Assembly: GCA_963920765.1 (NCBI GenBank)
Contig: OY987246.1
Span: 8,620,501-8,684,500 of the forward strand
Length of the DNA stretch: 64,000 nt
Direction: 5' to 3'
Source of the DNA: Ulota crispa
Lineage: Eukaryota; Streptophyta; Bryopsida; Orthotrichales; Orthotrichaceae
The position numbers were made by a program, and so were the translations under genes. The notes below the pieces were generated by a model. It had not been told where the DNA came from. It did no database searches and saw only the letters and a list, made by a program, of their open reading frames with translations. Position 1 is the first letter of the stretch, and the number at the start of each line of letters is the position of its first letter. Of this stretch, positions 4,153 through 57,677 are shown piece after piece.

Positions 4153-4630
4153 TAAAAAACAAATAATATATTTTTATGCGTATATATAATAGATTGGGTT
4201 GTTTGTTAGTTTGTAATAGTTGCAATATAATGGAAACATATGGGTAAAAAAACTTGTTGCATGGGTTAGAAATTGCATGAGTAAAAAATGGCATGTGTAA
4301 AAAAATTGCTTGGATAGAAAACAAAAAATATAAAAAATTGTGTGAATGATTAGAGTGCAAATGAATATCAAGTTGACAAGAATATGAGTGTGTGACTATT
4401 TTTATCAAAATTTCTCAAATTTCATGTTTTTTGTTTTTTTGCATATTTATAGTAGGCATCAAATTATAGTATGGAGTATTTGACACTATGAGGTTAATTG
4501 TGCCATCAAATCTTTCAATGTGTCCATAGGACACATGGGTTACACTAGTGTATGATAACAAGGAGCTACACTACAAAAGGCTCTATTGCCCTAAAAGTTT
4601 CTTAGGAAAAGGAACATGTTGACTCTTTAA

Positions 4631-4906
4631 GAGAAATTTGATGCATACCCTTAAAATTTGCAATATTTGTATAGAAGCCCTTTGGTTTTTCAGAAATTGC
4701 ACAAATAACACTTGGCATACTTTCTTAGTTGCAAAAATATCCTTCTCCATAGTTACTAAAAATGCCTGTCATTTGCTTTTGACAACAATGAAGAAAGGTA
4801 TTTTTGCAATTTGAAAGTTTGTTGAGGATATTTGTGCAATTTCTGAAAAACCAATGGGCTTCTATACAAATATTGCAAATTTTAGGGGTACTCATCCAAT
4901 TTTTCC
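4631..4906. mobile_element. Palindromic MITE-like element
   Basis: Arms of roughly 100 bp are inverted: TACCCTTAAAATTTGCAATA and GTTTTTCAGAAATTGCACAAATA on the left answer TATTTGTGCAATTTCTGAAA and TATTGCAAATTTTAGGGGTA on the right. No clear target duplication was found. The ends loosely resemble the 44331-44646 element (CATGGATACCCCT motif). Confidence 0.65.
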
Positions 4907-5211
4907 ATTTTATAAAGAATTTATTTCCTAATGAAGGAATCAATGATGAGGCTTATTATTAAGGTCTGCAAGATTTAGACTGTTGAAGTCAACCTATTCC
5001 CAACAAATGTGTCATTTCCAACCAATATTTCAAACCTAAGTGAACTTTGTTTTTCCTTCTTCTCATATTTCTCAAAGAGTCAAAGATGTCAAACTAAAGA
5101 TGGGGATACAAAGATCCATTCCCAACTCACACCCTAAAACCACGCAATCAATACTTCACAAAATCTAAAATATAAAATCAAATATCTTAAAAGCTTTTGT
5201 TATAGATTGAG
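4907..5211. other. AT-rich spacer without recognised genes
   Basis: I see no coding signal, repeat pair or RNA gene between the two hairpin elements that flank this stretch. Confidence 0.5.
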
Positions 5212-5331
5212 AACTACAAAGAAACCATGGTCAAATCTACAAAAAGTTAACAAAGATTGTGACCTAATCTATAAATTATGTCACAATCTTTGTCAACTTT
5301 TTGTAAATTTGACCATGGTTTTCTTGTAGTG
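5212..5331. mobile_element. Short CACTA-like hairpin MITE
   Basis: Two arms of about 50 bp are inverted around a short loop. The right end, read backwards, is CACTACAAGAAAACCATGG; the left end is AACTACAAAGAAACCATGG. The ends match CACTA termini, with the first base lost on the left. No exact 3-bp duplication is visible. Its interior is unrelated to the 3993-4152 element. Confidence 0.65.
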
Positions 5332-5897
5332 GAATGTGTTGGTTTCAAATTGATTGTGAATTTGTAGTGATTTTGAAAGCAATTTGATCAAAATCTGATG
5401 TTTTTTTCAAACATTTTTTATTAGCATATCTCCTAATTAATTTGATTCATGTCAAGTTTTAGTATATTGTGTTCTTCTTTCTATCTACAAGAGGCTTGCT
5501 TGATTTGAGGTAATTTCAAGCTCTAAAAGGTGGTTAAATGCTTAAAACATTGTTAATGGATGACTAAAAGTTGATGAATATAGCATATTTGATAATGCAA
5601 AATAGTAATTGGCATGAGTTAAAGACATGGAGTTGGAATAGTCTACTCCTCAAATTTTAGTACATATTGTCCCCCTTTATAGGCTTTTAAAATACGTAAT
5701 TGGTTTTGGATTTGATGAATGTTTGATTACATGGGAACGATTTGAGTGAGGAATGAATCTTTTTGTCTACATCTCTATAATAAATGCAATTTTGTTTATG
5801 ATTTTTGAATTTTCTAATTCCAATGCCAAGATGGAAGTTTGCCCTCACGCCATTAAATCCGCGGCGTATCACATTGTGTCATATGTACGTGCAAGTC

Positions 5898-7791: not shown

Positions 7792-8815
7792 TGTGGCCCG
7801 GTTCAGACTAGCATCTGACCAAAAATTTCTCAAATGTGATTGATTGAAATTTGGTTTTTTTTTGCTGTTTGGTTTAGATTGTGGATTTGTCCGGTACTTT
7901 TACATCCATCTTCATCACTGTGGAGACTACCTTATATAGCCACGTCAGTGGCCAAGATAGTGAATATATTTGGAGCTTGTTCCAAAGGTGGTACCAAACT
8001 TGTCCGGTAGAGGTATACTCTTGGGTGACACGCGATTACACAAAATTGTTTCTATTAATCAAAACACCAAACGGGGTGCCGATTTCCATGTCTCAGCCGA
8101 TCACTGGTCTGAATTGGGCCTATGTAACAAATCTTTGCTCATAGACATCTTTTCAATGACTCATTATGGACCATATGGATTGCCCGTGCTAGCGATAGCT
8201 TCCAGCAATCCAAATTTAGCTATATTATTGCATGGACATGCATTTTGTCCTAAAAACTCTACGCAAATTAGAAAGTCCGATGTGTGAACACCTAATTAAA
8301 ACCTACAACCACAAATGTAGATGGAATCTAGACCTTTGTGAAAGTTTTGCTCTAGTTGATCAAGTACAACAGCTTCGTGATGACCTGCTCAACATCCATT
8401 AAGCTACCATTTCCATATGAACATATAGAAGAAAAAAAAGTTGTAATCAATATGTAGCCCAAAAACTACCATTGATTGCATTCCGCATAAAAATAAGAGG
8501 CTCATAAATTGACTATCTAAGAGCTAAAACTGAATTTTGGAGAGGTGGAACTTCTTGAAATATTTTTTAGTAAATTTTCCTTGAAAGACAAGAAGAATTG
8601 GCATCTAACTCACGTTATTTTGTATTTTTTAGAGCAATGTGGAATTAGTTATGAAATTTTGAAGTGGAAAGGTCATAGGGCTCTAAAATGAATCACTTCT
8701 TCAAATGTACATCCACTGTACATTTCTGAAAGGCTATGAATAAGGACATGTACCGGTAGAGTTCATTTGAAGAAGTGAGCGGTATTATTGCCCTAACAGA
8801 GTTTGAGCCTCTTAC
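7792..8815. other. No gene recognised
   Basis: Two overlapping plus-strand reading frames (7881-8144 and 7970-8287) have no motif I recognise, and codon flow shifts between them. I see no repeats of note. Confidence 0.4.
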
Positions 8816-9125
8816 CTTACCAAATCCTAAATTGAGAAAATGAGCTACTGTTTCTACTTGTGCACACCGGCGTGCATCTAGCAGCGGGTCATTGAACACT
8901 CGCACTTCCTGCAGTACGGCGCTCTTCTCAAAGCCGTAAAACAACAAGTACTCAGTTGCAAAAGAAAGAATAACATAGCCCAATCCAAAGTTTCAATCGC
9001 AGCACACACTATTTATCAAATCTTAATCGATTATGCACAGGTCTTGAGGGATTTAAAAAAAATTAAAGCTTACAGTCACTGTCTTGATCATTGTCCTTCT
9101 TGAGAGCAGGTTGCACAAGCACCAT
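8816..9125 (-). pseudogene. Truncated coatomer gamma subunit (gamma-COP) fragment, exons 1-2
   Basis: Exon 1 (9125-9074) reads MVLVQPALKKDNDQDSD and ends at a GT donor. The second part (from about 8953) reads EYLLFYGFEKSAVLQEVRVF then NDPLLDARRCAQV, matching the gamma-COP N-terminus (FYGIEKGAVLQEARVFNDPQLD in the family). After RRCAQV similarity fades (ETVAHFLNLGFGK against the family's ITKLLYLLNQGE) and no further exon follows. The acceptor before exon 2 is not a clean AG and the frame across the join does not hold. Because intron and 5' leader remain, this is a genomic duplicate rather than a processed copy. A working gene would encode nearly 900 residues of the COPI coat. Confidence 0.8.
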
Positions 9126-9816
9126 GGCGATAGCAAAGGTGGAAGATTGCTGCTCTGCAACGGGAGCTGTTTCTACTAAGACGAGGAGGCAAGGTAAAAA
9201 GGAGACAAGCCAAAGAAGTGCAGTCCATTGATGAATGTTAGAAGGGATGAATTATTGCTTACGTTTGGATGTCGTTCTTGAATGAAATTCCTTGACTCTG
9301 CCGGACCCAATGATTTGAGTCTTGATAGGTGCCACAAAGGACCAATCATTTTATAAAAATGAAAAGGAATAAGTTTTGAAGTAACATATGGGCATCAAAA
9401 CTTCTCTAGCCTTTCTTTGCAAATGGAGGGTGCCAAATGGCTCTTACAATGGCTTGAAAAAATGGAACTGAGCGACTGCAAGCTTGACCTCCAATTTTGC
9501 TCTCTAAACAAGCACACCATTAATTGCTGGTGGGGTTGCATTTTTGTACACAATAAAATGAGAAGAGAGAAATAATTTCAAAAACCAAATCAACACCCAG
9601 GGAGGTGCAAACAAAGTTTTTTAGTAGAACTTTTGGGTAAACTTACAAAAAAAGATGATACAAGACACTAGATTCAAGCACAGCAAAATTCAACCGAGAG
9701 ACTAAACTTGTTGTCTCAGAAACAAAGTTTCACTCGGCCGACTACTTTTTGAAGTTTGGCGGGTCTGCGGTGGCCCTCAGTTTAAGGCCTCAACAATCTT
9801 GGAATCCCATATTCAA
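9126..9816. other. 5' flank of the gamma-COP fragment and spacer
   Basis: The first 200 bp (minus strand) look like the old leader of the gamma-COP fragment, with a possible 5' UTR intron (GT near 9262, AG near 9170). The remainder shows no gene or repeat pair. Confidence 0.4.
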
Positions 9817-40756: not shown

Positions 40757-40760
40757 TTAA

Positions 40761-41705
40761 CCCCAAAACACCCAATTGACCATTTTTTGGTTGCTACCCT
40801 TTTTGCAGGTTTCTCAAGATGAAAAAAAAAAACATTTTTTGAAAAAACAAAAACTATTTTCAAATAGTAAAGCAAGTCCACTTTCCAACCCAATTTTAAT
40901 CATGTCAATCCAAGTTAAACTCCACCAAGGAGAATTTTTCAAAGACAAACACTTCAAAATTTGCTAGTGTTATAACATTTACTATTTTGGGAAACTAATG
41001 ATGCTCTCTCCTTCAAAAATATTACATTTTTGAGTTTCAAAATAGAATGTATGTATATAACCAATCCCATCAAATTTTTAATTCTATGAATAAAGTTTGT
41101 AATTTTGGTGAATATAAATGGTAAATGCTTGTAAATTCAATATTGTAGGTTGAGAGCACATTCAGCAGTCAAGTGCCAAATTAATTATTTTTTGACAAAA
41201 TTCTAATTTGGCATCAAGTTTAGTAATTAGTTGAAGATTAGGCATTTTGAAAAAAATATATTACCATATGGCAATCAACTAATTATTTTAGTAGAAGCAA
41301 GCCTTCTTCAAAGTATATTTGACTTTCCAAAATTAGGCATTGGTACAAAGTTTGCATTAGACTGAGCCCTCCTAAAATTAGCCTTGACTTTCTTAAATTA
41401 TCTAGGCTTAATGACTTCTACAACATTAGGCAATTCGATTTTTTGTTTTATTTGACATTGGGCATTTTTAGAGAATAATTTACAAAACAATTGGGCTGAA
41501 TTTTGAGTAATTATTTTATGCCAAATCTGCTCTCAATCCACAATAAATAAGAATCCAAAACTTTTATTGATTGTTTTACCATATGGATAATTACTAAACA
41601 TCATGATTCTTATTTTCTCTTTTGAAATAAACTTCATCAAAGTTACAAAAGTATAATTTTATAATGCATTTATGATTTGCCCTTACCCCTTGAGCATTTA
41701 GGGGT
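40761..41705. mobile_element. TTAA-flanked element with CCCC/GGGG ends, piggyBac-like, copy P1
   Basis: TTAA lies at 40757-40760 and 41706-41709. The right end, read inward, is CCCCTAAATGCTCAAGG, close to the ends of 57083-57677; the left end CCCCAAAACACCCAATT is more diverged. A 401-bp TA-flanked MITE (41143-41543) is nested inside. No transposase is visible, so it would be non-autonomous. Confidence 0.55.
41143..41543. mobile_element. TA-flanked MITE, TTGTAGGTTGAG family, copy 1
   Basis: The left end is TTGTAGGTTGAGAGCACATT; the right end, reversed, is TTGTGGATTGAGAGCAGATT. TA is on both sides (41141-41142, 41544-41545). Copy 2 at 44665-45052 has the same interior (TTGACATTGGGCATTTTT, GATTAAGCCCTC-like motifs). 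Confidence 0.85.
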
Positions 41706-41709
41706 TAAC

Positions 41710-41776
41710 CCCTCAACACCCCAGGTACTGCATAATACAAAATGAGGCAATAATTGCGCCTTTTGGGCGTTGAGCG
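41710..41776. mobile_element. 67-bp TTAA-flanked mini-element (P2)
   Basis: It begins CCCCTCAACACCCCAGG and ends CTTTTGGGCGTTGAGCG, an imperfect inverted pair, between TTAA at 41706-41709 (shared with P1) and 41777-41780. It may be an extreme internal-deletion form of the same family. Confidence 0.45.
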
Positions 41777-41780
41777 TTAA

Positions 41781-44330
41781 GTGTCCTTAGCTAATCAAAT
41801 GGTCATAAGTGAATTCATTAAACTATAAGCAGCTCAATTTTAGCAATTACTAGCAATCCATAATCAAGTTTAGTTGCAAGCCAAATTGTGCAAATAAATA
41901 ATCAAACTACATCATTTAAAATATGATAAAGAGGGTGAAAATCCTTATTGGTAACCAATTGATTTACAAGAGCCGAAGATAATCAAGTCACTTGCAATAC
42001 TACATCTCCAATTGTCTCATCCTATCACACATATATAATCTAATTGTAGAATTAGGCAAGCATGATACCTAAAGGCTAAAGCACACACTTGACAACATAT
42101 CCCGAGAAAAAAAGGAAAAACAACATCTCAAAGACTTTGTTAGAGATAGTTTTCAAAAAACACGTACTGAAATCAGTAGAAACTTATTACTCCAAAACAA
42201 AATGAATTTTTTTTCTTTTCAATGTTTTAGCAAAAGGCAAACATCTTAAATTCAAAGTGGTCAACTCAATCTCTTTGAAAAGATATTGATTACATGTCTG
42301 AGATGAGGTGAATGGGCAACATAATGAAGAGATTTTTGTCAGAAGGGGGAGATGGTGGACAGCTTTGAATGCAAGGGGTCGCGACTCAAGTGGCTCCCCT
42401 TTGGCTTGCCATCAGTGCCCCCATCACTCTCACGAGAAAGGCTCCTGTGAATCTCTGGGCCACCCAGGCGCTGGGGCCGTTCTCTGGGGCCAGGTGGCAA
42501 AATCTCAGCCTTTGCACATGCCAGAAAATGTGAGAGTTTAGATGTTGAGATTGAATTAGGGAATTTTGAATGCACATATGGATTCAAAACTTCTGATTTA
42601 CTCTCAGCTAGAAACTAAGAGGAGGAGGCCAAATATTGATCAACTCCAATATAAGGGCTAGATTATTACTTTTATCCTTGCTCGTAAAAAAAGCTGGTAT
42701 TTTCCACCATGGCTGCACAAAAACTGCATGCTATCTAACTCCAACCTTGGGTTGGATAAGCAATTTTTGACAAGCACCTCAATCATATCTTTTGACTTGT
42801 TCTTCAAACATGAAAATATCCTTGTGACGTGCACCTTTACAATGTAGTGGTTTTTTTGGACGTTTGAAAACGAGAGAACGCGTTACAACAAATATATTTA
42901 AATCACTCATATGATATGGAGAGTCTTACAAAATATCACTAAAAGGGAAGAATTTCTTGATAATGAAAACAAATTTCATTTTTCACTCCTAATCTATACA
43001 GTTTGCAACAAAATAATGAACCCTAACATACAAAACAAATATAGCTAGAGTAGAATAAACAAACAATGATCTTAGAGAAGAAGCATGGTTTACAACAAAG
43101 CAAAAATCAATAACATAACTTATATGCTGCTCTTGCAAGCTTCAGCTTTTGTGTGTTGCTCTGTCACCGTAAGCACTTTGTGCTTTGCTTTGACCTTGCC
43201 TAAATTGATCTTGGGGAATGCTATACCGTGAGCAGGTGTTTGTGATCCATGAGTAGTTAGTCTAGATTTTTTTGTTGAAATAATATATTTCACCTATAAT
43301 TGTGTATATAGGCCCTTGTAATTGTGCAATTTAAATTTCATCTCTTAAAAAATTTGTCATTTTTTAGTTTTTCTGTTGACTTTGAGCTCAAAATTGGTTC
43401 TCACTTACAAAAAAATTGGCTCATGACTCACTATTTTATGCTCACAAAATAGCGTCATCCAATTGTTCTGCCCACCTCCTGTACCTTGCAGCGCCCTTTA
43501 GTGCCCCCACCTTGCCTTGCTCAACTTTGCTTTGTTTTTCAATATTCCACTTTGCTCAGTTCTGGCCTTGCTGGCTGGCTTTTGGCTTTGTCATGCTGTT
43601 CTGGTTTTGAGTTTCTAAGTTTGGAAAGATTCATGGATTCAGAAAAAAATCACCTTAGGAAAGTAAATGTATAATTAATTTTTCACATCATTCCCCAAAT
43701 ATTGGTGACAATTGAACTCTTACTTCAATTGGTAGTTTGGACAAATAACTTTTCTAAAGTGGTCATGTTACTAGAAGATTTCAAACTAATAAATTTTAGG
43801 ACGAGCTAAAAAAATACCCTTCATTTTAGGATTTTTTTGACATGTGACTAGCAAAAACAAATTTGACAAGAATCAGCATTGTTTAGATAAAAATCAAGGA
43901 ATATGTTCCCGTTTGTAGACAAATTCCCTGTTTCTTCAAAACATCCAAAGTGAATTTTTGTGCTTGGAATTATTTCACAATTAGAGGTTTAAAAGCTTGG
44001 TAAATAAATCCGTTTTCTCCTTCTAAGATTTGTTTTTGGTTTTCAAATTTAAACTCATTACTCCCATGGTTTTTTCTTGCAAAAGAGCCCCCTGCTTGTA
44101 CCGTTTTGTACCTAGCCAGGAGAATAATTCTTTCTGGTTTCTCATGAGAAGATTTGGATTTTGCTTGAGAAGAATGTGGTTTCCTCAAGCCAAAATGTCT
44201 TTGATCAAACTTTGTATTCCTTGAGGTTTGAAACCCCCTAATCTTAATATTGAGAATTCAAATTGGATTGTTCACAATTTGTTGGCAAATCTTACATGCA
44301 AAATCCTGTTTCTAGTTTAGATTTAGATTA
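41781..44330. other. Gene-poor tract
   Basis: A GC-richer island at about 42340-42530 contains a 77-codon frame with no known domain. A part near 42640-42720 weakly recalls the interior of the GGGAATTGATAT MITE. No gene is recognised. Confidence 0.4.
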
Positions 44331-44646
44331 AGGGAAAATTTCATGGATACCCCTAAAGTTTGCAATAATGTCATAGATACCCCTACTTTTTCAGAAATTT
44401 CATATGTACCCTTGAACCAAAATTTTCAAGCATTTTTTTTGTTGTGCATGCCACTTCTTTTCTCCCTTTCTACGCACACTACTTCTTTCTTGTTACATGT
44501 GTACACAAGGAAGAAGGAAAGTGACATGCACAACAAAAAAAAAAAGCTTGAAAATTTTGGTCCAAGGATATCTGTGAAATTTTTGTAAAAGCAAGGTTAT
44601 CTATGACATTATTGCAAACTTCAAGGGTATCCATGAATTTTTCCCT
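44331..44646. mobile_element. TA-flanked palindromic MITE, AGGGAAAATTTCATGG family
   Basis: The left arm is AGGGAAAATTTCATGGATAC and the right arm, reversed, AGGGAAAAATTCATGGATAC. Arms pair for well over 100 bp. TA flanks both sides (44329-44330, 44647-44648). A truncated relative is at 22651-22795. Confidence 0.85.
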
Positions 44647-44664
44647 TAGACTCATTGGTGAATA

Positions 44665-45052
44665 TTGTAGGTTGAGAACAAATTCAACATGTTTGTGCCG
44701 AATCAATTAACTTTTGAGAAAAAACCAATTCAGCATCCAATTTTGTAATTAAACAAGATTGGGCACTTTCAAAAAAAAGTTTTTATTATTTAATATTCAA
44801 ACAAATTTTCTAATAGAATTAAGTCTTTTTCTAAGCATCTTCCACTTTCTAAAATTAGTCTTTGGTATAAATTTTTTAATAGATTAAGCCCTCTTAGAAT
44901 CAACCTTGACTTCCCATTAATGTCTTTTATAATATCTGACATTTCAATTTTTTGATTTGTTTGACATTGGACATTTTTGAAGAATAATTTATGGAATAAT
45001 TGGGCAAAATTTTGGGGAATCATTTTATGCCGTATCTGCTCTCAACCTACAG
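44665..45052. mobile_element. TA-flanked MITE, TTGTAGGTTGAG family, copy 2
   Basis: The ends TTGTAGGTTGAGAACAAATT and GCTCTCAACCTACAG are flanked by TA (44663-44664, 45053-45054). It lies 18 bp from the preceding MITE. Confidence 0.85.
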
Positions 45053-45429
45053 TATTAGACAAGATACACTTCGTCCAATATTGATTGTAAAGGATTCTAT
45101 GCGTTGGACAAACGAGAAGTAAGTTATATGGTGTTGCAGAAGTATTAAAGTAGGTTTCGAGAACTTTTGAAATATCTACATTTTTGCCAAAATTTGACAA
45201 TTTCTAAGCCCTTCAAGATTTCAAGATTATTTGGATTTTGGAGGGTATATATCTAAGCAATTTGGACATTTGAACTTCAAGAGGCTACAAGTAGAGTAAG
45301 CTAAGCATGTGCAAAAGTTTTGAGTTCTACATGCCACTGTGAACACTGAGGTGCACAATAAGATTGATTTGGAGATGCTGGAAACCTTCATATGCTATAA
45401 CCAATAACAATAAAAAAATCATCTTTTAT
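45053..45429. other. Spacer
   Basis: No gene or repeat pair is recognised here. Confidence 0.4.
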
Positions 45430-45602
45430 CACTAGAAGAAACCCGTGTTTTTTATAACGGGTTTTTTTGAATGTCCACTTGAATTATGTTACAATAGATG
45501 TTAAAACTAACATCTTGATGTCATGTTTGATGTTATTTTTAACATAAAAAAAAGTAGACATCCAAAAAATTCCGTTATAAAAAACACAGGTTTCTTCTGG
45601 TG
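45430..45602. mobile_element. CACTA-like hairpin MITE, copy 2
   Basis: It begins CACTAGAAGAAACCCGTG and ends CACAGGTTTCTTCTGGTG. The interior (ATGTTAAAACTAACATCTTG) matches 3993-4152. The two copies lie in opposite orientation, although the near-palindromic structure makes this hard to define. No exact target duplication remains. Confidence 0.8.
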
Positions 45603-46726
45603 ATATTAAATCATAAAAAATCCCTCACAATGTCACTTCTTTACCAAGGTTGATAAAAATGTTGGTATATATTGAAGGATGTGTAGGAAATGACTTTCTT
45701 GTGATGAAGTTTTTCTAGTAACTTTTCTTGGTTTCATTTGAAATTAGGGCATTTTTGTAATACAATGCATTGAAACTTAAGTTTGGACATTTCTAAAATT
45801 GGATCCTAACACAAAGCTCTTGGGTCCAATCAATGGCCCAGTTTCAAACTGTTCTCAAATTTGGTCAATGCATTGTGGTGATTGACTTTATTTTGGCTCA
45901 AACCCAAATTTTGGTGCCAAAAAACTTCTCCATGAAAGCCATAATTTTAATAAAACCAATTGAGTCAACCTCCGGTATAACCCTTAGTTGATTATTCAAA
46001 TGAACAAAAGAGGTTTAAGCAATAGATAAGTAGTCAAGCAATGTTATTGCAAATCAAACTATTAAGTACAACTACAAACTCACTAATTGAGGAGAATTCT
46101 GAGTTTCATTGGCAGTATTAAGCATTTTTCTTTTCAACCAATTTTTCGTAAGCATGGATCCAACATTGCCTATATTTATACCATAATTATACAGTATTTT
46201 TGAATGAATGACCAATGTTTTTCTCATGTAGTTTTTATTCCAAGCAATTTTTTGCATTTTGACCATCTAACAACATAATAACTACTATTCCTCCCAACAC
46301 ATTGTTTTATTGCAAGGCACATTAACTATAGTAGTTGCATCCAACTTTATCTTGCAGATGTATGTAAGATTCTACAATACAAGGCTTTATGGTTTGAGAA
46401 CACAAAACACTTATAGTATTCATTGTGGGTCACCAGGATTTCACTAAAACTCACCCTAGACTTAATGACTCTAATACTTTATCTTGGAACCAAGATAAAA
46501 TACCTCCACTACTTTATGAACAAGGGTTAAAATGAGAGTTTGTTTCTATTTTGGAATTGGTCTCATTCATTCCCTTTTGTAGTTCCTATACTAATTTAGG
46601 GTTTGTGAATCCAAATGCAAATTCAAAATTTTCAAATTCAATCCCTTCAAGGTAAACTTCAAAACTCTTACATTTTTGGCATGTGAAAACAAGGTGTCAA
46701 AGCCATTTAGTCCAACATGAGTTTTA
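45603..46726. other. AT-rich spacer
   Basis: No gene or repeat pair is recognised here. Confidence 0.4.
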
Positions 46727-47070
46727 GGGCTGTTCACACTGCATCCCACGTCCCATCTATGCATGTCCCATTGCAACGCCATATCCCAACTTTGTTGCGT
46801 TGTTAATGGCAAAAAGGATTACTAACAAATGTCATGATTATCTTATGCAAAAAAATTGGTGGAACTTGGGTTAAAAGTTAGATCTAATAAAATGGTCAAC
46901 CCAAACCTTGAGTGAAATCCCACCTTCTTTGGCGCCAAAACTTTCAAAAAGTGTGGAATGTGGAATTTAGGACATAGTGTGAAGAGCCAAGCCCCAAATT
47001 TTAACTTTACATCAATCGATTATTTTGAGTTCAGTAGGACTTGGGATGTGGGACATAATGTGAACCGCCC
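46727..47070. mobile_element. TIR element, GGGCTGTTCACA ends
   Basis: The left end GGGCTGTTCACACTGCATCC and the reversed right end GGGCGGTTCACATTATGTCC pair over about 30 bp (continuing CCACRTCCCA). No target duplication is clear, so the superfamily is left open; hAT-like is possible. Confidence 0.65.
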
Positions 47071-49638
47071 CCGAGCCGGCATACAACTAACTTGTGTCCA
47101 ACCATGTTGTGCCAACTCAGCAAAACGTTCTACTCGGCCAGTTACGTGTGAGGGCCACTGGTACCTTCGGGGTTCAATTGCTGTGTAAGTTATTGAAAGT
47201 CACCTCCCAAGCATGGCAAGCAGTGTAAATGAAGGGCAGCTCCTGAACAGAAAATACAGCGTGTTAGTACGCTTGTACTGAATGCCAGTGTAGGTGGAGA
47301 GAGACGGACCCCTGCAACTCCCAGCACTCACGGGTTGCCTGCAACCTTTCCTTTTGCAAATCTTGTTTTACCAAGGACTTTTGAATTATCATTCCTGTCA
47401 ACTTTTGCATATTACACTTTATAACTGGTTGCTACAGTACTATTCTTTACATCTCTGGAAAAAACACTTGATGAAGTTTGGTTGAATTGTTTATCTTCTT
47501 TTTCTTGAAATTTCTACTAAGTTGTTTGTAAACGCATTTGTTACTAGTGTATAGGCACAGGCTTTGTACAGATTGAACATGTATGGGTAATGCAACATTC
47601 AACTTTATAGAATCAAATAAATTGGTCTAAAGTTTAACTTTTATGTACTTTACAAAAAATCAATACTTCATAATTGGATCAAAATCTAACTTTGATGCAC
47701 CGTAATTTTGGTTCTTTTTTGAAATCAAAAATAATAATTGCCTTCATCACAATGCGACTCTTTAATACTTTAATAGAGGCACTTGACATTTTGTTGGTTT
47801 TCTAGCATAAGGTTGGAGGACGTTTGGTGTTCTATATCTCGCGTGTCCTTTATTGCTTCCTCTTATACCAAGAAATTCTAGAAGGTTTTGGAAAAAGACG
47901 CAAAGTTGAATTCCTCCCGCTTAGTAATATGAATGTCTATATTTTACAACTTGGTGTCATTAGAGAAAGAACAAGGTCATTAATTGGTTGTTCACTTTGT
48001 GTAGCAATAAAGTCACTATTAGTCCAAAGATGTTAACAAAGTGCTTTGTAAGGGATTTGAAATGTTTTTAGGTCAATTGCCCACGTTCATAAATATAAAA
48101 CATCAAAATAATGATGAAGAGGTAATCTTTTTAAAAGAATTTAATATCACTAATTGAAGGAAGGATTGGGAAAATATCCAGGGAAAATATTATGGCTCAT
48201 ATGAGTGCCCATTCCAAGTGTACTGTAACACAAAAGATTTACTTTTTACTATTTGAATTGGAATTTTGTTGGGACCATTCACCTCAACTTTTGCTGCTTT
48301 GCCAAAAGAAAATTGTGTGTGCGCCATAAGATTTGTATACAAAAGAGTGTTGCTTTGCTTGTCTAAATAAGCACCTAAGCATGGCTTCTATTAATATTCA
48401 AAATGAAGGGCAATGTTGGCACATCTATGCCAAATATCTATACATTTGTAAAAAATAAGTTAAGCAAGTATCAACAGAAGTTGGCATCTACATTTTAGAT
48501 TGCTGTTTGTCAACCCCTTTTCGTTTGGGTACTTTGTTGCCAAATATTTTAGGAACTACAAAGGAGACTCTTCCATATTTTAACATCTGGATATTGCAAA
48601 TTGATTAAAGTCATGTTTGTTAAAATGTCGCATGCTATGTAGGAGTTCTTGCAAATCACGATTTTTGACAAGCAAGGAGTGAAACATAATTATAAAATAC
48701 TAAAAACACCCATTCATATCAATAGAAAAAAGAGCACAAAATCAACCAAGTTTGTTTCTAGAACATAAATTTTTGTTTATCTACAAATGAACTATAATGA
48801 GTTATTTTTGACATCTAGATATTTAGGAAAAATAAAAACTAAAACTAAAGCAAATTGCTCTTTTCATCATAGATCACATACTTTTCACTACTGCTACTAT
48901 TTGATTCTTGTAATCTTTTTAGTTGTAGGATCTTGAAACAACACCATGAATAATAGTAGTATAATTGACTTGAAGGATGCTTATGTTTAAAATAAAATAA
49001 AAATTAAGAATTTTGATTTTTAAAAGAAAACTTGCAATCGAATCATTGTTGAAATTTAGATAATTTTTTTTGAGTTTTTGGGAGTTTGATATGTATGTAT
49101 ATGTATATATGTATATTTATTGACTACTTTATACTAATCATATGCATATGTTTATGCATATAATTTTGCATGTATTCAAGTGCGCGCGTGCGCACATATA
49201 CATATATATAGATAGATAGAGGGAATTGTTAAAGCCGTACCCAAAATTGCTACCACCACACATCAAGGTGTGCTTTGAGCATGAATTATGAGAATTGAAT
49301 GTTGATATCTAAAATTGGATCAAAAGGTTTGTTTCACCTTAATCATTCTAACGCTGTATACAATTTGATTGGAGGTGTTTGCATTTGAAACTAAAAATAT
49401 AGGACTTTTCAATATTTAAAGCAAAAATACATCAAAAGAATAGCAGATGTGCAATAAAAGTTCAACAAAAAAATTGTATTTGTTCTTCTTTCTTTCAAGA
49501 AGGTAGTAATACCTTGATTGAATGAATCATGATGAACCGCTTGAATAAAAAAATAGCATTAAATTTGTGAAATTCATGCTTATAAGGGTGTGGCATTAGC
49601 AATTTTGAGTGTGGCTTTAGCAGTTCCCTACACATATA
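47071..49638. other. Gene-poor tract with a TA/TG microsatellite
   Basis: A microsatellite zone lies at about 49086-49216 (GTATATATGTATA, GTGCGCGCGTGCGCAC, ATATATAGATAGATAG). No gene is recognised. Confidence 0.45.
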
Positions 49639-49960
49639 AGGTAGGAGCACCCATAAGCAACTCTATCCCCGTAACCGTCATCTCTAAAATCTTGGAAATT
49701 TTTTGGAAGTAAATAGATGTAATGATAAGGATGTACAACATGTAAACATGAAAACTTGATAGTGGTTATGGGTACAATGGCAATTTGCTCTTTCAAAATT
49801 CACAAGTTATTCTCATAGTATCCAAATAATACATTCAAAATTGCAAACTCATTGTTTTTCTGTTCCTAATAAGATCTTATAATTTGCTAGCTATTTATTA
49901 ATACTCATAATGTGCAAAACCCTTACATTGACGCTTATGAGCTTATGAGTGCTCCTACCT
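49639..49960. mobile_element. GGTAGG family type 1 MITE
   Basis: The ends AGGTAGGAGCACCCATAAGC and GAGTGCTCCTACCT are flanked by TA (49637-49638, 49961-49962). The interior is as in 1318-1631. A short GCTTATGA duplication lies near the right end. Confidence 0.85.
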
Positions 49961-49962
49961 TA

Positions 49963-50642
49963 TAAGAGTGAATGTGAAATATAGAAATATTCATAAAATA
50001 TTTTGATGATAATTATGCATTATGGACTTAACATTAATGTGTCTGTGTAAACTTAATGATCAGTTGTGTCAAAAGTAACTTTCCTCAATCTCCACGTAAC
50101 CATTCTCAAAGAGTATATCTTGTCTTGTAGTTGGATACATTGAGAAGTAGGTGATAGCAAAGATTTTTCACTATGACCACTAAATTATTTAGGTTTTTTT
50201 TTGTTTTTGTAATGAAGCCATTCTTTAGATAGGGGCATTACCATAAAGACATAAATTTTGGGTTTGATCATGGAAAGCTTGAAAAAATCTCATAGTTTCT
50301 ACAAGAAAGAGTGAGGCTTTGAGAGCGTTTGGAGTGTGATTTACAACTTAGATTCAAATGATATATTTTTTTGTTATTTAAATAAGACCGCTTCTTTGAA
50401 ATAACTAATTCAAGTGAGAAATCATTTAATGATACTTGTATACGTGAAGAAAATTGCATGTATTGGTTAAAATTTAATGAAATAGCTAAACAAAATTACA
50501 AAAGCCGTAAGTTGGGCATTTTGGTCTATTAGGGAAATTACTGAATTTGGAAAACTATGATGCTTGATTGTATCATGATTGAATGTACAGACAACAGTAG
50601 AACCAAATGGTTCTATTGGAATTGCAAAACATGATTAGTTCT
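49963..50642. other. AT-rich spacer
   Basis: No gene or repeat pair is recognised here. Confidence 0.4.
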
Positions 50643-50646
50643 TTAA

Positions 50647-50945
50647 CCCCTCAAGGACCATTGTTCCTTTGGGGGACAAATGGGATTTCAAGCATGTACC
50701 TATGGCTAAACTACTTTGTGGGAATGTAGTTTTTTCTTCATTCTGATATTTATTAAAAAAAATCAAAATGAATTTATGGAAAAAGCTGCTCCCCGGGCAG
50801 CCAAAAACTTCTTGAAAATTTTCAATTTTTTCAAATAAAAATCTGACATGAGTTCTTTAAACTTATATAGATGTGGGGAGCTTTGAATCATTCAATTTTG
50901 ATGAACAAGATGAAAATTATGAGAAGTTTTAGTTTGCGAGTAAGT
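50647..50945. mobile_element. Partial copy of the TTAA family (P3)
   Basis: It starts at TTAA (50643-50646) with CCCCTCAAGGACCATTGTTC. It matches the right half of 55885-56805 read backwards: GCATGTACCTATGGCTAAAC, TACTTTGTG, AATTTATG and AGCTTTGAATCATTCAATTT. No matching right end was found downstream, so the copy appears truncated. Confidence 0.7.
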
Positions 50946-53279
50946 GTGGTTTCAAGAGAAACCCACATATTATACAGACAAATAAATAAATAATCTTCAA
51001 TTCATAAAGAATTGATGGTTGATTACTATTTTTGTTTACACAGTGAAATTGATGTGGAAATGAAGGTGCATACGGAATGACAAACGTTAAAAAATTACAT
51101 AATTTGAATCCCATGATACCGTCTTGAATAGCATATGAAATTGTAAATTTGGATGGAAAGGCCTACTCTAAATAGTACTGTTGTTCACATCATTTTGTGA
51201 TTTGTATATTCAAAAAAAATCAACGGCATAATAATAATTTTTCAAAACCTGTCTATAAATTAAGAGAATTGGAAACAAAGACGTAGTATTACATCTTGTA
51301 TTATAATAGATTTGGTTTACATTATGCCTGTCGGTCAAGCAAAGTAAGATTTATAAATTTGTGATTAGTCGAGGGGCAAGGGGCAAAGTGTGAAACTTGT
51401 GATTGATCAAGGGTCGAGGGGCAAAGTGATGCACATGGGTGTTGCGTGTGAAAGGACATTTTTGGTGGAACCCATTGAATCTTTTTTCAACTTGAGATTT
51501 AGATATAAAGGGGTGTGGAAAGAGATGAACTGACAAATTGATTTGAATCTAAAATTGAAATTGAGGTTATGTTACTCCATAAAATATGTTTTGTGAATGG
51601 GAGGTGACATGAGAGAGTATGACATGGGGATAGTATAGAGGCCTCAATCAAATGGAATGCCTCTCATTCATAACGCTCATTCATGACCCAATGAACAATA
51701 TATCCAAAATGTGTCCATAGGATATGGGTTATATCAGTTGTTTGATAAAATGTAATTGATCAAAGTAATTGTAATATTCCTTCCAAATTACCATTTTCAT
51801 ATTTCAAATATGTATCAAAACTTTGTCGTAACAAATGCTAGGATAGACAATACCTGAATTTAAATATATCTAAGTGTTCCATTATTTCTTCTAGGTCAAG
51901 TCGTGAAAAAGATAAATTGCCTTTTTAATGTTTTGGTGATAAAAGTAGGTTTTTCATTAATTTTGTTAACAAAGAAAAAAATGATTTAGATTTGGATGTT
52001 CCTCAAGCCTTTAAAATGGAGCGGCTTATGTGTTATAAACTTCAACTTAGTTTTAATGATGCCAGCGGGTAAAAATAAAATTTGGTTGGTTTCATCTTTA
52101 AAATGTCAAAATATATTTTCACTCTTTTTTGTTTGTGTTTTTGCACATTATTTCATAAATTTAATCTTTAATAATCACTTAGATATGAATGTGGAAATCT
52201 TGATTTCTCTCATGAAGTTCTGCACTTTCATAACATTCAGTAGCCTGAAGAGAGGCTACCTTTCCCTCTCTTCAGGTATCATCCACAAACTTCATCCTAA
52301 TACAAACCAAAAAAATCAAAATAAAAGTTATTATTATTATTATTATTTAATTTTTTTAGCATGGTTGGCCCCCTCATCGGCGTCAAGTGAGCCTTTCTCT
52401 CATAAACTCTTTGACAAATTCAGCCAAATGTCCCCTTAGCTAAAGATGGGTGTGGAATATTCCACACTACTTCAGCTAATGAATGAAATGGTGTGAAATA
52501 TTCCACACCATTTCATGTGGAGGGAGGGCAACGTCCACTAGCGCTACTGAATGTTATGTTGTATACAATTGAAACTAAAAATTAAGACCTCTTTCCGTAC
52601 TAAACAAGAAATCATGTTAACACGTATGAGTACAAAAATTGTACTATATAGTAAATTGATCTGGAAGAGATCCTTTTCTTAGATCAAATAATTAAAATCG
52701 ACTAAAATAAAGGTCTCGAATAACGAGTCAAATTTTTAGCGAAAACAATGATTAGTAATACAAAAATGTGCTAGTGAAAAAACATATTTGCAACTTAGCT
52801 TAGGTAATTTGTTGTTAATGCTTGTTCTACATGATCTTTGATTGCCTTATATTGGTGTATCTTTGGCATAAATACAACATTTCTTTAGAATTGTTGAAAA
52901 TTACTCTCATTTAATTTCTGGATGACTAAGTGCTAATATTTTGCACTATTGGATGTCAAAAATGTCACATTTTCAAACATTGGGATATTCTAACTTATTT
53001 TTATTTAACTTCTTATTGATTTGCCTTTTTGTTTTAATGAATATTATATTAAATTTCAAAATTTCAGTAACAAATTGAAACATTCACGAACTGATGTCAA
53101 ATGAAATTTACACATTTGTATACACGTCAATCTTTTTCTTAGCAAATATGGGTAATAATCACCTAATAAAACCATTGCCAAGTATTCTTACAAACAATTG
53201 TCCACTCCGTCATAGCACACAACTTTATTCATGCTTCTTCGAAGTTGATACATTTTACTAGATATTTGCAATTGGAGCC
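50946..53279. other. Gene-poor tract with hairpins
   Basis: A 13-bp-arm hairpin (CCTGAAGAGAGG/CCCTCTCTTCAGG) lies at about 52242-52275, a TTA microsatellite at about 52328-52348 and palindromes at 52450-52514. A 147-residue frame at 51996-52439 is low-complexity and resembles nothing known. Confidence 0.45.
52450..52514. repeat. Two related perfect or near-perfect palindromes
   Basis: GTGTGGAATATTCCACAC (52450-52467) is a perfect 18-bp palindrome. GAAATGGTGTG/CACACCATTTC around AAATATTC (52485-52514) repeats the same core. Both contain GAAnnTTC, the shape of a heat-shock element, but no gene is nearby. Confidence 0.8.
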
Positions 53280-53283
53280 TTAA

Positions 53284-54034
53284 CCCCTGAGTGCATAGGC
53301 CATTTTCACCAAAATTAGAGATTTTGGAGACCAATTACTTTGATGCATTGTATCTTAGTCAATCAGATCATTTACAAAAGTGACCATTGAAAATAGTGGA
53401 AAACTACTTAGAAAATGGCTTGCAAATTTTGGGAACAACTAATCGTGGGAGATGGGATACAATTACATTTGATCAAACAACATGTGATGACAAAATCTCA
53501 ATTTTTGGTAGGTAGTTGCTACTTGATGAGTTTTAAAAAATTCTATAAGCCCTTGATTCATCTTAAATTTTATGAGCAGCAAGATTGGAAATGAATGCAC
53601 ACACTTGTAAATTATTGAAATTTGCACTTCTTTTTATGTCAAATTTTAGGTCTTCAAATTGCTATTGCATGGAAAACAATGACCGGCACAGTCAATGACG
53701 GTTGCCATAATAAGGGTTTAGAACATGCTTGAACCCTTGCCAACAACTTTCCCACTACCACAAAGCACATAGAAGGAAGCTTGCAAGGGATATTGACCAA
53801 TTGCAGCCTGTAAAACATTGCTTGCCACCACGCCCCGTATGGTGTTTCACCCAATCAAATCTCTTGAGACACTTGTACAACATTTGATTTGCCTCGCCAT
53901 TACTTCATTGGCATGGACAACTTGAATGTTTTCATAATTATAGTCTAAAGCAAGATCAAAAAAGTAGATCCGGTTCCTCAAATAAGCATTTCTAATCCCC
54001 AAAGGCAGTATGTTGTCTCTTAGACGCTTAGGGG
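53284..54034. mobile_element. TTAA-flanked element (P4), diverged subfamily
   Basis: It starts after TTAA (53280-53283) with CCCCTGAGTGCATAGGCC and ends GACGCTTAGGGG before CTAA (54035-54038). The reversed right end CCCCTAAGCGTC pairs with the left end CCCCTGAGTGC. The interior differs from the other copies. It abuts the next element. Confidence 0.6.
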
Positions 54035-54038
54035 CTAA

Positions 54039-54945
54039 CCCCTAAAGCCCTGGGGCCTCTATTTTGTCAAATGACACTCAAAATTGCCACTTTTATGGCA
54101 AAGAGCAAAAAAGTTCAAAAATTGGTCTTTTTGCATATGTAATTGTAGGATCTTGTACTAGACTAGTATCAAAATGTGGAAAAAAAATCCAAAAACTTTG
54201 ACCACACAAATTGCCAAATATTTGCGTTTAAAGTGTAAAAAACAATTTTTTTTGCACCTTGCATGACTAGATTATTTGACTTTGAACTTTTTTAATTTAA
54301 AACTTTTGCACCACAAAGTTTTGAGGTTTATTTTTTTATGATGGAGAATTGAGTTGAGAATCTTTAGAAAAAATTCAAAACAAAAAATACTTAATTCTCA
54401 ATCTTAAAAAACACATTAGGTGGAAGAAGGTGTGAAATTGAACAAAAAATTAAATTGTTATTAACCTTGCAATGGAATTGAAACGCAATAATCCCAATGG
54501 TAAGATTGTTTTAGAAAACAAACTTCACCCTCTCCAACGGTTTATTTTGAAAAAATGTTAAACTTACATTCAAAAATGAAGTTTATAAGTTATTTTTTCA
54601 AGAAGTTGCTTGAATACCCCGAAAAACAAGATTGTCCCTAACTTTCTCATAACTAGTCCAAATGTAATGAATCAAAGCTTCAGATGTAGACAAAACTAAA
54701 TCCTATGAGAAGAAAATTAAAAAGAAAACAATTTGTTTTTCTTGCCCAATCTCCATAAATTTGTGCTTATGTAGGCATAGCTGTTGCTTTTGGGCAAAGA
54801 TTGGAATAAATACTATAATTCCCAAAAGCTAATGTGTTTTCCTATCTTCAAAAAAAGTTACAAAAAATCAAGACAAAATTTAAGGCTGTAGATGCCTGCC
54901 CAAAATCCCATTTGTCCCTCAAGAGGACACTCAGGGATTTAAGGG
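54039..54945. mobile_element. TTAA-flanked element (P5), homologue of P6
   Basis: The left end is CCCCTAAAGCCCTGGGGCC after CTAA (54035-54038); the right end, reversed, is CCCTTAAATCCCTGAGTG before TTAA (54946-54949). Internal motifs shared with 55885-56805 include GCCACTT, TGTAGGATCTTG, AAATTTATG and AGCTTTGATTCATT. Length is 907 bp against 921 bp for P6. Confidence 0.75.
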
Positions 54946-54949
54946 TTAA

Positions 54950-55732
54950 TTGTGTTTTTAATTTCACTAAAGTCAATCTACAATGTAAAAATGAATTGAG
55001 AGTGGTATGGAGTTGAAAAGTTTCTTCCACAAGAAAGAGTGTTATGGTAGATATGTCCATGATCAGTCACATGTCACACACATGCCAATGACCAATCATA
55101 TACCTGCTCTCATTTCTTGGTGCGTGCGAGATTCCAATTCAAATTAAACATACTTCGTTGTTCATACGTGTGTGATAGTTGGAGTTGCAAGCGCAACTTG
55201 CCACAATTTAGTCATATGATGATACTTTCTAATTTCAACATACTTTATACCGAAAGAACTCACTATCTAAACTTAATACATTTGTAAGTGGTAATTGACT
55301 ACTATCCTTGCAATTTTGTAACATCTATTTCCTAAATCCTATTTAGTACTAGAATTAAAAAAACAACTACTGGGTAGTATATTTTATCAAAAACAAAGAT
55401 CACAATTTTTTATTGTTTGAGTTTACAGTGGCCACTTTCACAACTTTTTGGATGTCAAATAGTGCATGACAGTTATAACCAACAATTATAGTCGCAATAA
55501 GAAATGCTATAGAATAATGCATATGCGCCCATTAGCTCAAAAGCAATCCCATCAACAAGAAGAATAAAATTTAGGCTTCATCCTTGTGCTTTTGGATTTT
55601 GAATAACTTCAATTTTGATGGAGCAGTCTACCACTCAAATTCAAAAGTTGTTGATTACAAGTGTCACGCACTATATGACCCAAAGAAAATCCCAATTTAC
55701 ACTAAATTCTACAAGAAGATTTGGGAATTGAT
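54950..55732. other. Spacer
   Basis: No gene or repeat pair is recognised here. Confidence 0.4.
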
Positions 55733-57070
55733 ATATGCACATCCATAGTTTCATACATGCACATTGGAGGGGTGGGGTTAATTTAGATATTTACTATTAA
55801 CAAGTTGAATTTGGAAAATTTGAATTCAAATATAAAGTTGGAGATCTTGATTTGGTCTAGAACCTCAAAGGAGGTTACAATTAACCCCTAAAGGACCAAG
55901 CCCTTATTTTGTGAAAATCACTAAACACTGCCACTTCTAGGAGGTTTTGTAAAACAAGATTTTATGTTTTGTTTTTTGGAAATCCAACTGTAGGATCTTG
56001 GCCCAGATTAGTAGAGGTACTTGTGGGAAAAAAAGTAGCTCATTCCAAATGAAGAGGAGTGAGATATTTACATCTAAAGTGAAAAAAAAGTTTCTTTCCA
56101 TGCTGCCCAAAAATTTCAGAAGCGTTTGACCACTATTATAGCAAAAAAATTGCTCTACCCAAAGTTGCACTTTATTTTTTCCACGTAGGAGATCTAGTTA
56201 GGTATTTTTGAGAGAATTTTCAAATCAATTGGAACTACACAACACATGGGAAAATATACTACATAAAAAGAAGTAGAGAATGAGTCAAAACACTAAATTG
56301 TTAACAATTTAATTACTGAAATGAAAAATGCAAATCCCAATCATTCTAGTGTTGTGGTAAACAACCTACTTCTTTTGGTTTTTTTTTCCAAAATATTGAA
56401 AATTGAGTAAAATTAAGGACTTCAAAGTTTATTTTAGAGTAGAGATTCCATAACTGCCCTCAAACAAAAACTCCTCAAAACTTTCATGTCATTGATTGAA
56501 ATTGAATGATTCAAAGCTTCTCACCTATAAAAAAATCTAAAGAACCAATTTAAAATTTAAAATTTAAAAATGTAAATTTTAAAGTAATTTTGGGGTTGCT
56601 TGGATGGGCAAATCTCCCCAAATTTTCATAAATTCATGCATAACTTCTTCATCAAATGTTGGAATGAAGACAAAATCACATGTCCACATAGATCTTTGAA
56701 TTCCCGCCTTCAATGAAAGTTTTAGAAAATCACACAAAGTAGTTTAGCCATAGGTACATGCCCAAGTCCAACATGTCACTCAAAGGGACAATGGTCCTTT
56801 AGGGGTTAAACAATACCCAATGGAGAAGCTTAGCTCTTTTTTATAAATAAGGGTAAAAGTAATAATTTTCTCCCTAACTAAGATTTTCCACTAGGCGTGG
56901 TTCAATTGTAACCTCCTGTATGATTCTAGACTAAACTGTGACCTCTAAAACCAAATCTAAATTCAAATTTTCCAAATTCATCTTATTGACAGTAAATATC
57001 CGACGGTAATTATCTAATGTTCACCCCAGGTGTGCACATATTAACCCCTAGTGTGCATATATCAATTCCC
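55733..57070. mobile_element. GGGAATTGATAT family MITE, copy 2, carrying a nested TTAA element
   Basis: It begins GGGAATTGATATATGCACAT and ends GCATATATCAATTCCC. It matches 21572-21969 along both halves. Removing the nested P6 and one TTAA leaves about 413 bp, against 398 bp in the other copy. Confidence 0.85.
55885..56805. mobile_element. TTAA-flanked element (P6), best-supported piggyBac-like copy
   Basis: CCCCTAAAGGACCAAGC at the left and GGTCCTTTAGGGG at the right are inverted, with TTAA at 55881-55884 and 56806-56809. In the homologous MITE at 21572-21969 the same spot reads ACATTTGAACAATT once, so the tetranucleotide was duplicated on insertion. TTAA choice with a CCC start is diagnostic of piggyBac. 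No transposase frame is visible in the 921 bp. Confidence 0.85.
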
Positions 57071-57082
57071 TAATCTTATGCA

Positions 57083-57677
57083 TTAATCCCTAAATGCCCA
57101 GGGCACCATATTTTGGTGTTGACAATATTTTGAAGTTCCATAAAATCTAAGTAATTTGTTTTTTTTAGTATTTAGTATTTTAGAATTATTCTATTTGAAA
57201 TCTAGTTTTAGCTTCAAAAACCTGATTTTGAAAATTAATAATTGTGAATTTTCTTTTCATGATTTTGTGCAAGGGTGTCCATTGCAATCTTGACATTTTT
57301 AGTTTTGAGAGTTCATGAAAATGACCCTCAAATACATTAGATCTTGGAGAAAAATCCACAACAGAAGTATGTCCTTTAACCTGATATTTTTTTGGTGACC
57401 AACATTTTAGATTTGACATGTGAAAAGAAGGTTGAAAGACTCGAAGTCATTTTTGCAGTTTTAACACCCTCTTTATCAAACATTACAATCTTTCAATCCA
57501 TAAGCAAAATTGTCATGTTTTCTTTTCTTGTGTGATGTTTAACATATCTAGTTTGAATTTGTATGGTTACAATTTAAAAAAAATTAATACAACTTATCAA
57601 AATGTTGACTTTTGTTCAATACAGTAGAGAGCAAATTCCTAAAAACTCAAAAAAGGCCTTGGGCATTTAGGGGTTAA
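57083..57677. mobile_element. TTAA-type element (P7)
   Basis: Coordinates include the terminal TTAA at each end. The left is TTAATCCCTAAATGCCCAGG; the right, reversed, TTAACCCCTAAATGCCCAAG. The inverted ends are the best match to each other of all copies. It lies 12 bp beyond the 55733-57070 element. Confidence 0.75.

Follow-up and report, generated by a model that had tools for sequence, protein, structure and literature searches.

Short piggyBac-type elements in the moss Ulota crispa and the large piggyBac population to which they probably belong

A stretch of the genome of the moss Ulota crispa, 64,000 nucleotides long and referred to here as the window (C5:8620501-8684500), contains seven intervals (P1 to P7) that begin with similar short sequences beside TTAA or a one-base variant of it. 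The question raised by this locus is what these intervals are, and whether they belong to the piggyBac superfamily of transposons. The observations described below make it very probable that they are non-autonomous (MITE-like, 0.5–0.95 kb) piggyBac members in a moss genome whose piggyBac population is both very large and diverse.

The original prediction placed element-like starts at 40761, 41710, 50647, 53284, 54039, 55885 and 57083, and all seven are present with an offset of a few bases at most. It further proposed that an inverted partner closes most of the intervals. This is true of P1, P4, P5, P6 and P7, where 12–16 of the first 20 bases agree between the two ends of each, but not of P2 and P3. 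The terminal inverted repeats start with CCC[C/T]T, as is characteristic of the piggyBac superfamily, and each end of P1, P5, P6 and P7 bears TTAA, or a variant of it that differs in one base. These four, having two ends and relatives elsewhere in the genome, are also the ones for which the proposal of a multi-copy element family stands, with P3 added as a one-ended relative of P6. No open reading frame of at least 120 aa, and so no transposase, is found within P1–P7, as had been noted before and as is expected of MITEs. The coordinates of all features are collected in Table 1.

Table 1. Element-like features of the window, in window coordinates
Feature	Position	Strand	Ends or basis of assignment
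P1, non-autonomous piggyBac-type element	40757..41708	+	TTAA at both ends, TTAACCCCAAAACACCC ... GCATTTAGGGGTTAA
Inverted-repeat element inside P1, not piggyBac	41141..41547		TATTGTAGGTTGAGAGCA...TGCTCTCAAYCYACARTA, ~0.4 kb
P2, end-like sequence, not confirmed as element	41705..41729	+	TTAA common to P1 and P2
P3, one-ended remnant related to P6 right half	50643..50949	-	sequence identity
P4, two-ended candidate element	53280..54038	+	ends TTAACCCCTGAG ... CTTAGGGGCTAA
P5, non-autonomous piggyBac-type element, 0.9 kb	54035..54949	+	two ends and genome copies
P6, non-autonomous piggyBac-type element, 929 bp including both TTAA	55881..56809	+	genome copies
P7, non-autonomous piggyBac-type element, 595 bp including both TTAA	57083..57677	+	genome copies

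The first of the intervals, P1, is ~0.54 kb long once the element nested in it is subtracted. An uninterrupted, TTAA-ended relative occurs at positions 182-726 of a locus fetched from elsewhere in the genome (L022), and a related piece is found in another (L025). Among 17 matches to the right end of P1, nine terminate precisely on the final base of TTAA, one falls a single base short and seven run on. The nested inverted-repeat element is missing from the L022 relative and has a second copy at 44663-45054 of the window; a third lies at 8565-9570 of locus L009 and is itself split by a P7-type element. Two foldbacks also occur in the window, at 44329-44648 (112-nt arms, 88% complementary) and at 45418-45614 (63-nt arms, 84% complementary). 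P1 adjoins the end-like P2 across a single TTAA. P2 was considered as an element and rejected, because a search for its right end found none and the body is not repeated among 40 scored candidates. P3 consists of a block (50643-50723) that is 85% identical to positions 850-929 of P6 in reverse orientation, and a further 75% block at 50801-50936.

P4 and P5 stand back to back across one common CTAA, a variant of TTAA. No match to P4 was found in the fetched loci, and when P4 and P5 were searched as one query all 40 scored candidates matched the P5 part and none the P4 part. P5 matches 39 other places in the genome at 84–87% identity, with one further row at 80% (40 scored of 6,028 candidates); these matches start at 54036 in 31 of 39 cases and end within 54948-54953 in 35 of 39. 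P5 and P6 had been described as alignable copies of ~0.9 kb, which is borne out by 600 identical positions among 861 aligned columns (z 28.6 against 30 shuffles).

P6 itself has 39 other copies at 85–88% identity, most of them full length (40 scored of 8,218 first-look candidates; the 42 rows comprise one self match, the 39 copies and two side pieces). The copies start within the first two bases of the query in 37 of 39 cases and extend at least to the final base of the right-hand TTAA in 35 of 39, with 22 stopping exactly there. Three that lie close together on contig C9 score equally and could have arisen by local duplication. The search with P7 gave 76 rows from 40 scored of 5,046 candidates, self included, with limits mostly at query positions 1-5 and 597-600, which are the TTAAs. 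Four other copies of P7 match in one piece and the remainder in pieces whose halves, when rows are compared, stand ~65 bp apart; P7 is without this stretch, which is present in the middle of many of its relatives. The elements are short, non-coding and high in copy number, as MITEs are, and P6 exceeds the usual MITE length, given as under 500 bp in the excerpt of a study of coral elements (PMC2872659).

Scoring of the flanks of copies for TTAA had been suggested. It was applied at both ends of a selected set of 20 copies, the 10 best of P6 and 10 of P7 that have both halves. Exact TTAA is present at 35 of the 40 ends and a one-base variant at the other five (TTGA twice, GTAA, ATAA and TTAT). 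The outer flanks, compared by eye, vary between copies, and a few contain the end of another such element. No duplication of any other type was seen at these 40 ends of 20 well-matching copies. The P7-type element in L009 has TTAA on both sides and lies inside its copy of the ~0.4 kb inverted-repeat element. The related empty site is provided by the copy at 44663-45054 of the window, where a single TTAA occurs at 44819-44822; its flanks agree with those in L009 at 36 of 40 bases on the right and at 18 of 30 on the left, the latter only moderately alike. Set side by side, the two sites are as expected for an insertion at TTAA that duplicates its target. A TTAA target site that is duplicated on insertion is likewise a property of piggyBac.

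A search of the genome for a DDE_Tnp_1_7 transposase enclosed by the same ends had also been proposed. At least 120 stretches match PF13843 (DDE_Tnp_1_7), every one scoring above the Pfam cut-off and the best with an E of 1.3e-73 (116 of 528 candidates scored); in some cases more than one stretch belongs to a single gene. No match to PF13843 was obtained in 14 control genomes, which says little because the named controls are bacteria. Twenty of the transposase places were fetched with flanks, plus two more (L041 and L042). In eight of the 20 (L009, L011, L012, L013, L014, L017, L018 and L021) paired, inward-facing ends of the TTAA and CCCYT type bracket the transposase. This supports the superfamily named at the outset from the ends alone, and in this search for PF13843 no transposase of another type came to light between such ends. 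The bracketed elements are 5.0–6.3 kb long, with exact TTAA at 13 of 16 ends and a one-base variant at three; at least three of the four TTAA bases were required when the ends were chosen, so these counts are not independent evidence for TTAA. The pairing of ends is absent or doubtful in the other 12 loci, and no paired ends were seen at L041 and L042.

The limits of L009 (on C3) and L018 (on C10) are defined by homology, with DDE_Tnp_1_7 inside them as in piggyBac. The two align over 5,029 columns at 90% identity, a stretch that opens with the first base of one TTAA and closes one base beyond the other. Homology between L012 and L021 likewise starts and stops at the marked ends, except for a separate repeat outside. 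With L009 as query, a third copy covering the whole query was found on C8, while C11 yielded one that is diverged and broken; the query had been cut at TTAA, so these two matches are no test of the limits of the element.

The transposases are diverse. Pairwise identity among the 20 domains is 29–81% (median 35%), and average linkage gives six groups at a distance of 0.6 and twelve at 0.45. The catalytic aspartates of the Trichoplusia ni (T. ni) piggyBac transposase are D268, D346, D447 and D450. Aspartate occupies the four corresponding places in 19 of 20, 15 of 20, 17 of 19 and 16 of 19 stretches; the majority of the stretches contain stops. One locus, L019, has a stop-free reading frame of 389 aa (4314-5480, C2:34594948-34595949) that aligns with piggyBat (9c0f, E 2.6e-24) and with the T. 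ni transposase (6x67, E 7.6e-20), with aspartate at all four places aligned to both. Between one and eight stops interrupt the domain in 17 of the 20 stretches, and each of the eight bracketed copies has 1 to 8. L019 and L027 have no stops but also no clear paired ends, and L027 has asparagine at the third aspartate; L028 has no stops but its domain is cut short. Paired ends together with an uninterrupted transposase domain were found in none of the copies examined. The reading frame of L019, beside which no paired TTAA/CCC ends were seen, may be a domesticated gene, or else an old copy that has lost its ends.

A link between the short elements and the long ones beyond the ends themselves is seen for P6. 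The 39 bases that follow the terminus on its left side correspond in register to the right end of L011, and none of 1000 shuffles is as good; this comparison also gives a z of 6.9, the highest of 160 comparisons. In the same local test P6 is matched as well by one of 1000 shuffles with L021, where a low-complexity stretch is involved, and by seven of 1000 with L012. For P7 compared with L012 and L021 the global z is 3.9 and 4.8, and in the local test 128 and 184 of 1000 shuffles are as good. Descent of P7 from an element of the L012/L021 type is not claimed, the global test being suggestive and the local test not significant. Beyond the ends, none of the eight bracketed elements is a clear partner of P1, P4 or P5; the highest z for these three is 3.9 (P5 with L011), a pair for which 189 of 1000 shuffles are as good in the local test.

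Targeting of TTAA is not exclusive to piggyBac. The short elements could accordingly belong to some other group of TTAA-targeting DNA transposons, the piggyBac transposases of this genome being a separate matter, and this reading draws on the weak link of P7 to any particular transposase-bearing element and on a transposase search that covered PF13843 only. It is very unlikely in view of the end type that brackets PF13843 in the eight loci, the homology-defined limits of L009 and L018 and the subterminal sequence common to P6 and L011. Under the preferred reading, membership in piggyBac, a transposase from a full-length element of 5–6 kb would bind the CCCYTNANNGNCC ends, excise the element at TTAA and join it into another TTAA, which would leave TTAA on both sides. 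Action of these transposases in trans on the short elements is inferred, as is the pairing of a given lineage with the family that it would have moved.

The families examined do not appear to be fresh, because their nearest copies are just 88–90% identical (88% for those of P6, 90% for those of the L028 copy). The two other full-length copies of the L009 type are 90% and 88% identical. It would follow that the tested families are old and perhaps inactive; younger families may exist.

The assembly comprises 274.8 Mb in 157 contigs. Within the window the motif TTAACCCC occurs at 12 sites against 1.9 expected, and TTAACCCCTNA with at most one mismatch at 17 against 4.9; none of 100 shuffles is as high in either case. 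Genome-wide, CCCCTAAAGGACCA, the exact end of the P6 type, has 8,876 sites and its reversed-pattern control none. TTAA precedes 7,555 of these (85%), an unselected set, the background density of TTAA being ~4.3 per kb (window and 20 transposase loci). The wider end pattern TTAACCCYTNANNGNCC has 31,318 sites, and its control nine. It is conceivable that the intervals are chance matches of the short CCCCTAAA motif beside TTAA in AT-rich DNA; the motif is short, and chance may account for P2 and for a site at 57041. As an account of the whole this is exceedingly improbable given these excesses and the full-length copies of 0.6–0.9 kb, and for P1, P5, P6 and P7 their copies already refute it. Counting two ends to each element, the wider pattern gives an estimate of ~15,600 elements in the genome, a count that misses ends outside the pattern and includes some orphan ends. 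At 0.6–0.93 kb each, they would amount to roughly 9–15 Mb, or 3–5% of the genome.

Two element ends meet across one common TTAA at 491 places in the genome, an arrangement like that at the P1/P2 and P4/P5 boundaries. The random expectation is ~206 (15,659 squared divided by 1.19 million TTAA, a total extrapolated from the window and the 20 transposase loci), or ~150–270 if the TTAA density of chalcone synthase loci or of the window is used. This 2–3 fold excess may reflect insertion beside the elements' own ends, and is treated as a lead only, because a difference of this size could also arise if insertions were clustered or segments had been duplicated.

The surroundings of the elements are those of a plant genome. 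Judged by eye, several frames of the window look like genes of a plant (SDH1-like, aspartic protease and ArfGAP). A chalcone synthase reading frame on C1 (L037), a single marker, scores 661 bits with PDB 6dx7, which we take to be the Physcomitrium patens enzyme, and two near-identical entries, and 526 bits with the next, 2p0u, presumably from Marchantia, a difference that leans towards a moss. The chalcone synthase family as a whole is represented by 33 stretches (L029-L040 were fetched), some of them clustered on C1, C3 and C9 with equal or near-equal scores. That piggyBac is seldom reported from plants might suggest contamination of the assembly by an animal or another piggyBac-rich organism, but with P6 copies on every one of contigs C1 to C10, plant-like frames in the window, and chalcone synthase genes on the same contigs, which are multi-megabase in length, there is hardly any likelihood of this.

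The abundance of such elements in a land plant had been called unusual, and the literature agrees so far as its available portions extend. The excerpt of a 2025 paper places piggyBac across animals, fungi and protists and occasionally in plant genomes. A bee paper lists plants, fungi and animals as hosts, with no plant example in the part available (PMC10140906), and a plant review, also in excerpt, names piggyBac as a superfamily (PMC10794571). Repeat tables for a fern and a grass (PMC6890710, PMC8319324), seen as extracts, give 1,230 copies (122 kb) for Ceratopteris and a single copy for Stipa. No report of piggyBac from a moss or liverwort was found among the open-access titles and beginnings of abstracts that were listed; one may exist in a subscription paper or in Repbase. 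One candidate report (PMC10619864) was rejected, the word in its excerpt being 'piggybacking'. The type of transposon and its mechanism are ordinary; the host and the very large numbers are unusual, since the excerpted open papers record no more than traces or an occasional presence of piggyBac in plants.

A land-plant genome in which at least 120 transposase stretches fall into several lineages, and whose elements number an estimated 15,000 or more, would alter the picture of piggyBac as a rarity in plants. A broader proposal, offered tentatively and with the balance somewhat against it, is that in some mosses a long-standing, native piggyBac population is a leading class of DNA transposon, with numerous transposase lineages and over 15,000 short derivatives in one genome, maybe favouring TTAA beside its own ends. 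The origin of piggyBac in mosses becomes testable, as descent or as transfer from animals, fungi or protists. In addition, piggyBac is a main tool in genome engineering, and the moss elements offer relatives of it that are adapted to a plant.

Several known systems may be compared with the elements described here. Like the Stowaway and Tourist MITEs of plants, they are short, non-coding and high in copy number. Stowaway and Tourist duplicate TA and TAA, respectively, and belong with another transposase superfamily than piggyBac. The T. ni piggyBac and piggyBat share with the moss elements the TTAA target, the CCCYT ends and the four catalytic aspartates aligned to 6x67 and 9c0f. What sets the moss apart within the superfamily is that the host is a land plant and that the ends are counted in tens of thousands; the bracketed elements, at 5.0–6.3 kb, also differ from the T. 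ni element, given as 2,472 bp in the excerpt of the bee paper (PMC10140906). The nearest described parallel seen is that of the piggyBac MITEs of corals, the CMITEs, which according to the available part of their description (PMC2872659) are non-coding and TTAA-flanked with ends of the piggyBac type. One CMITE family is tied there to a piggyBac-like transposon by sequence adjacent to its ends, and an allele free of the element was found. The host of the CMITEs is an animal, whereas in the moss the two most-tested families are 0.6–0.9 kb long and are present in very large numbers.
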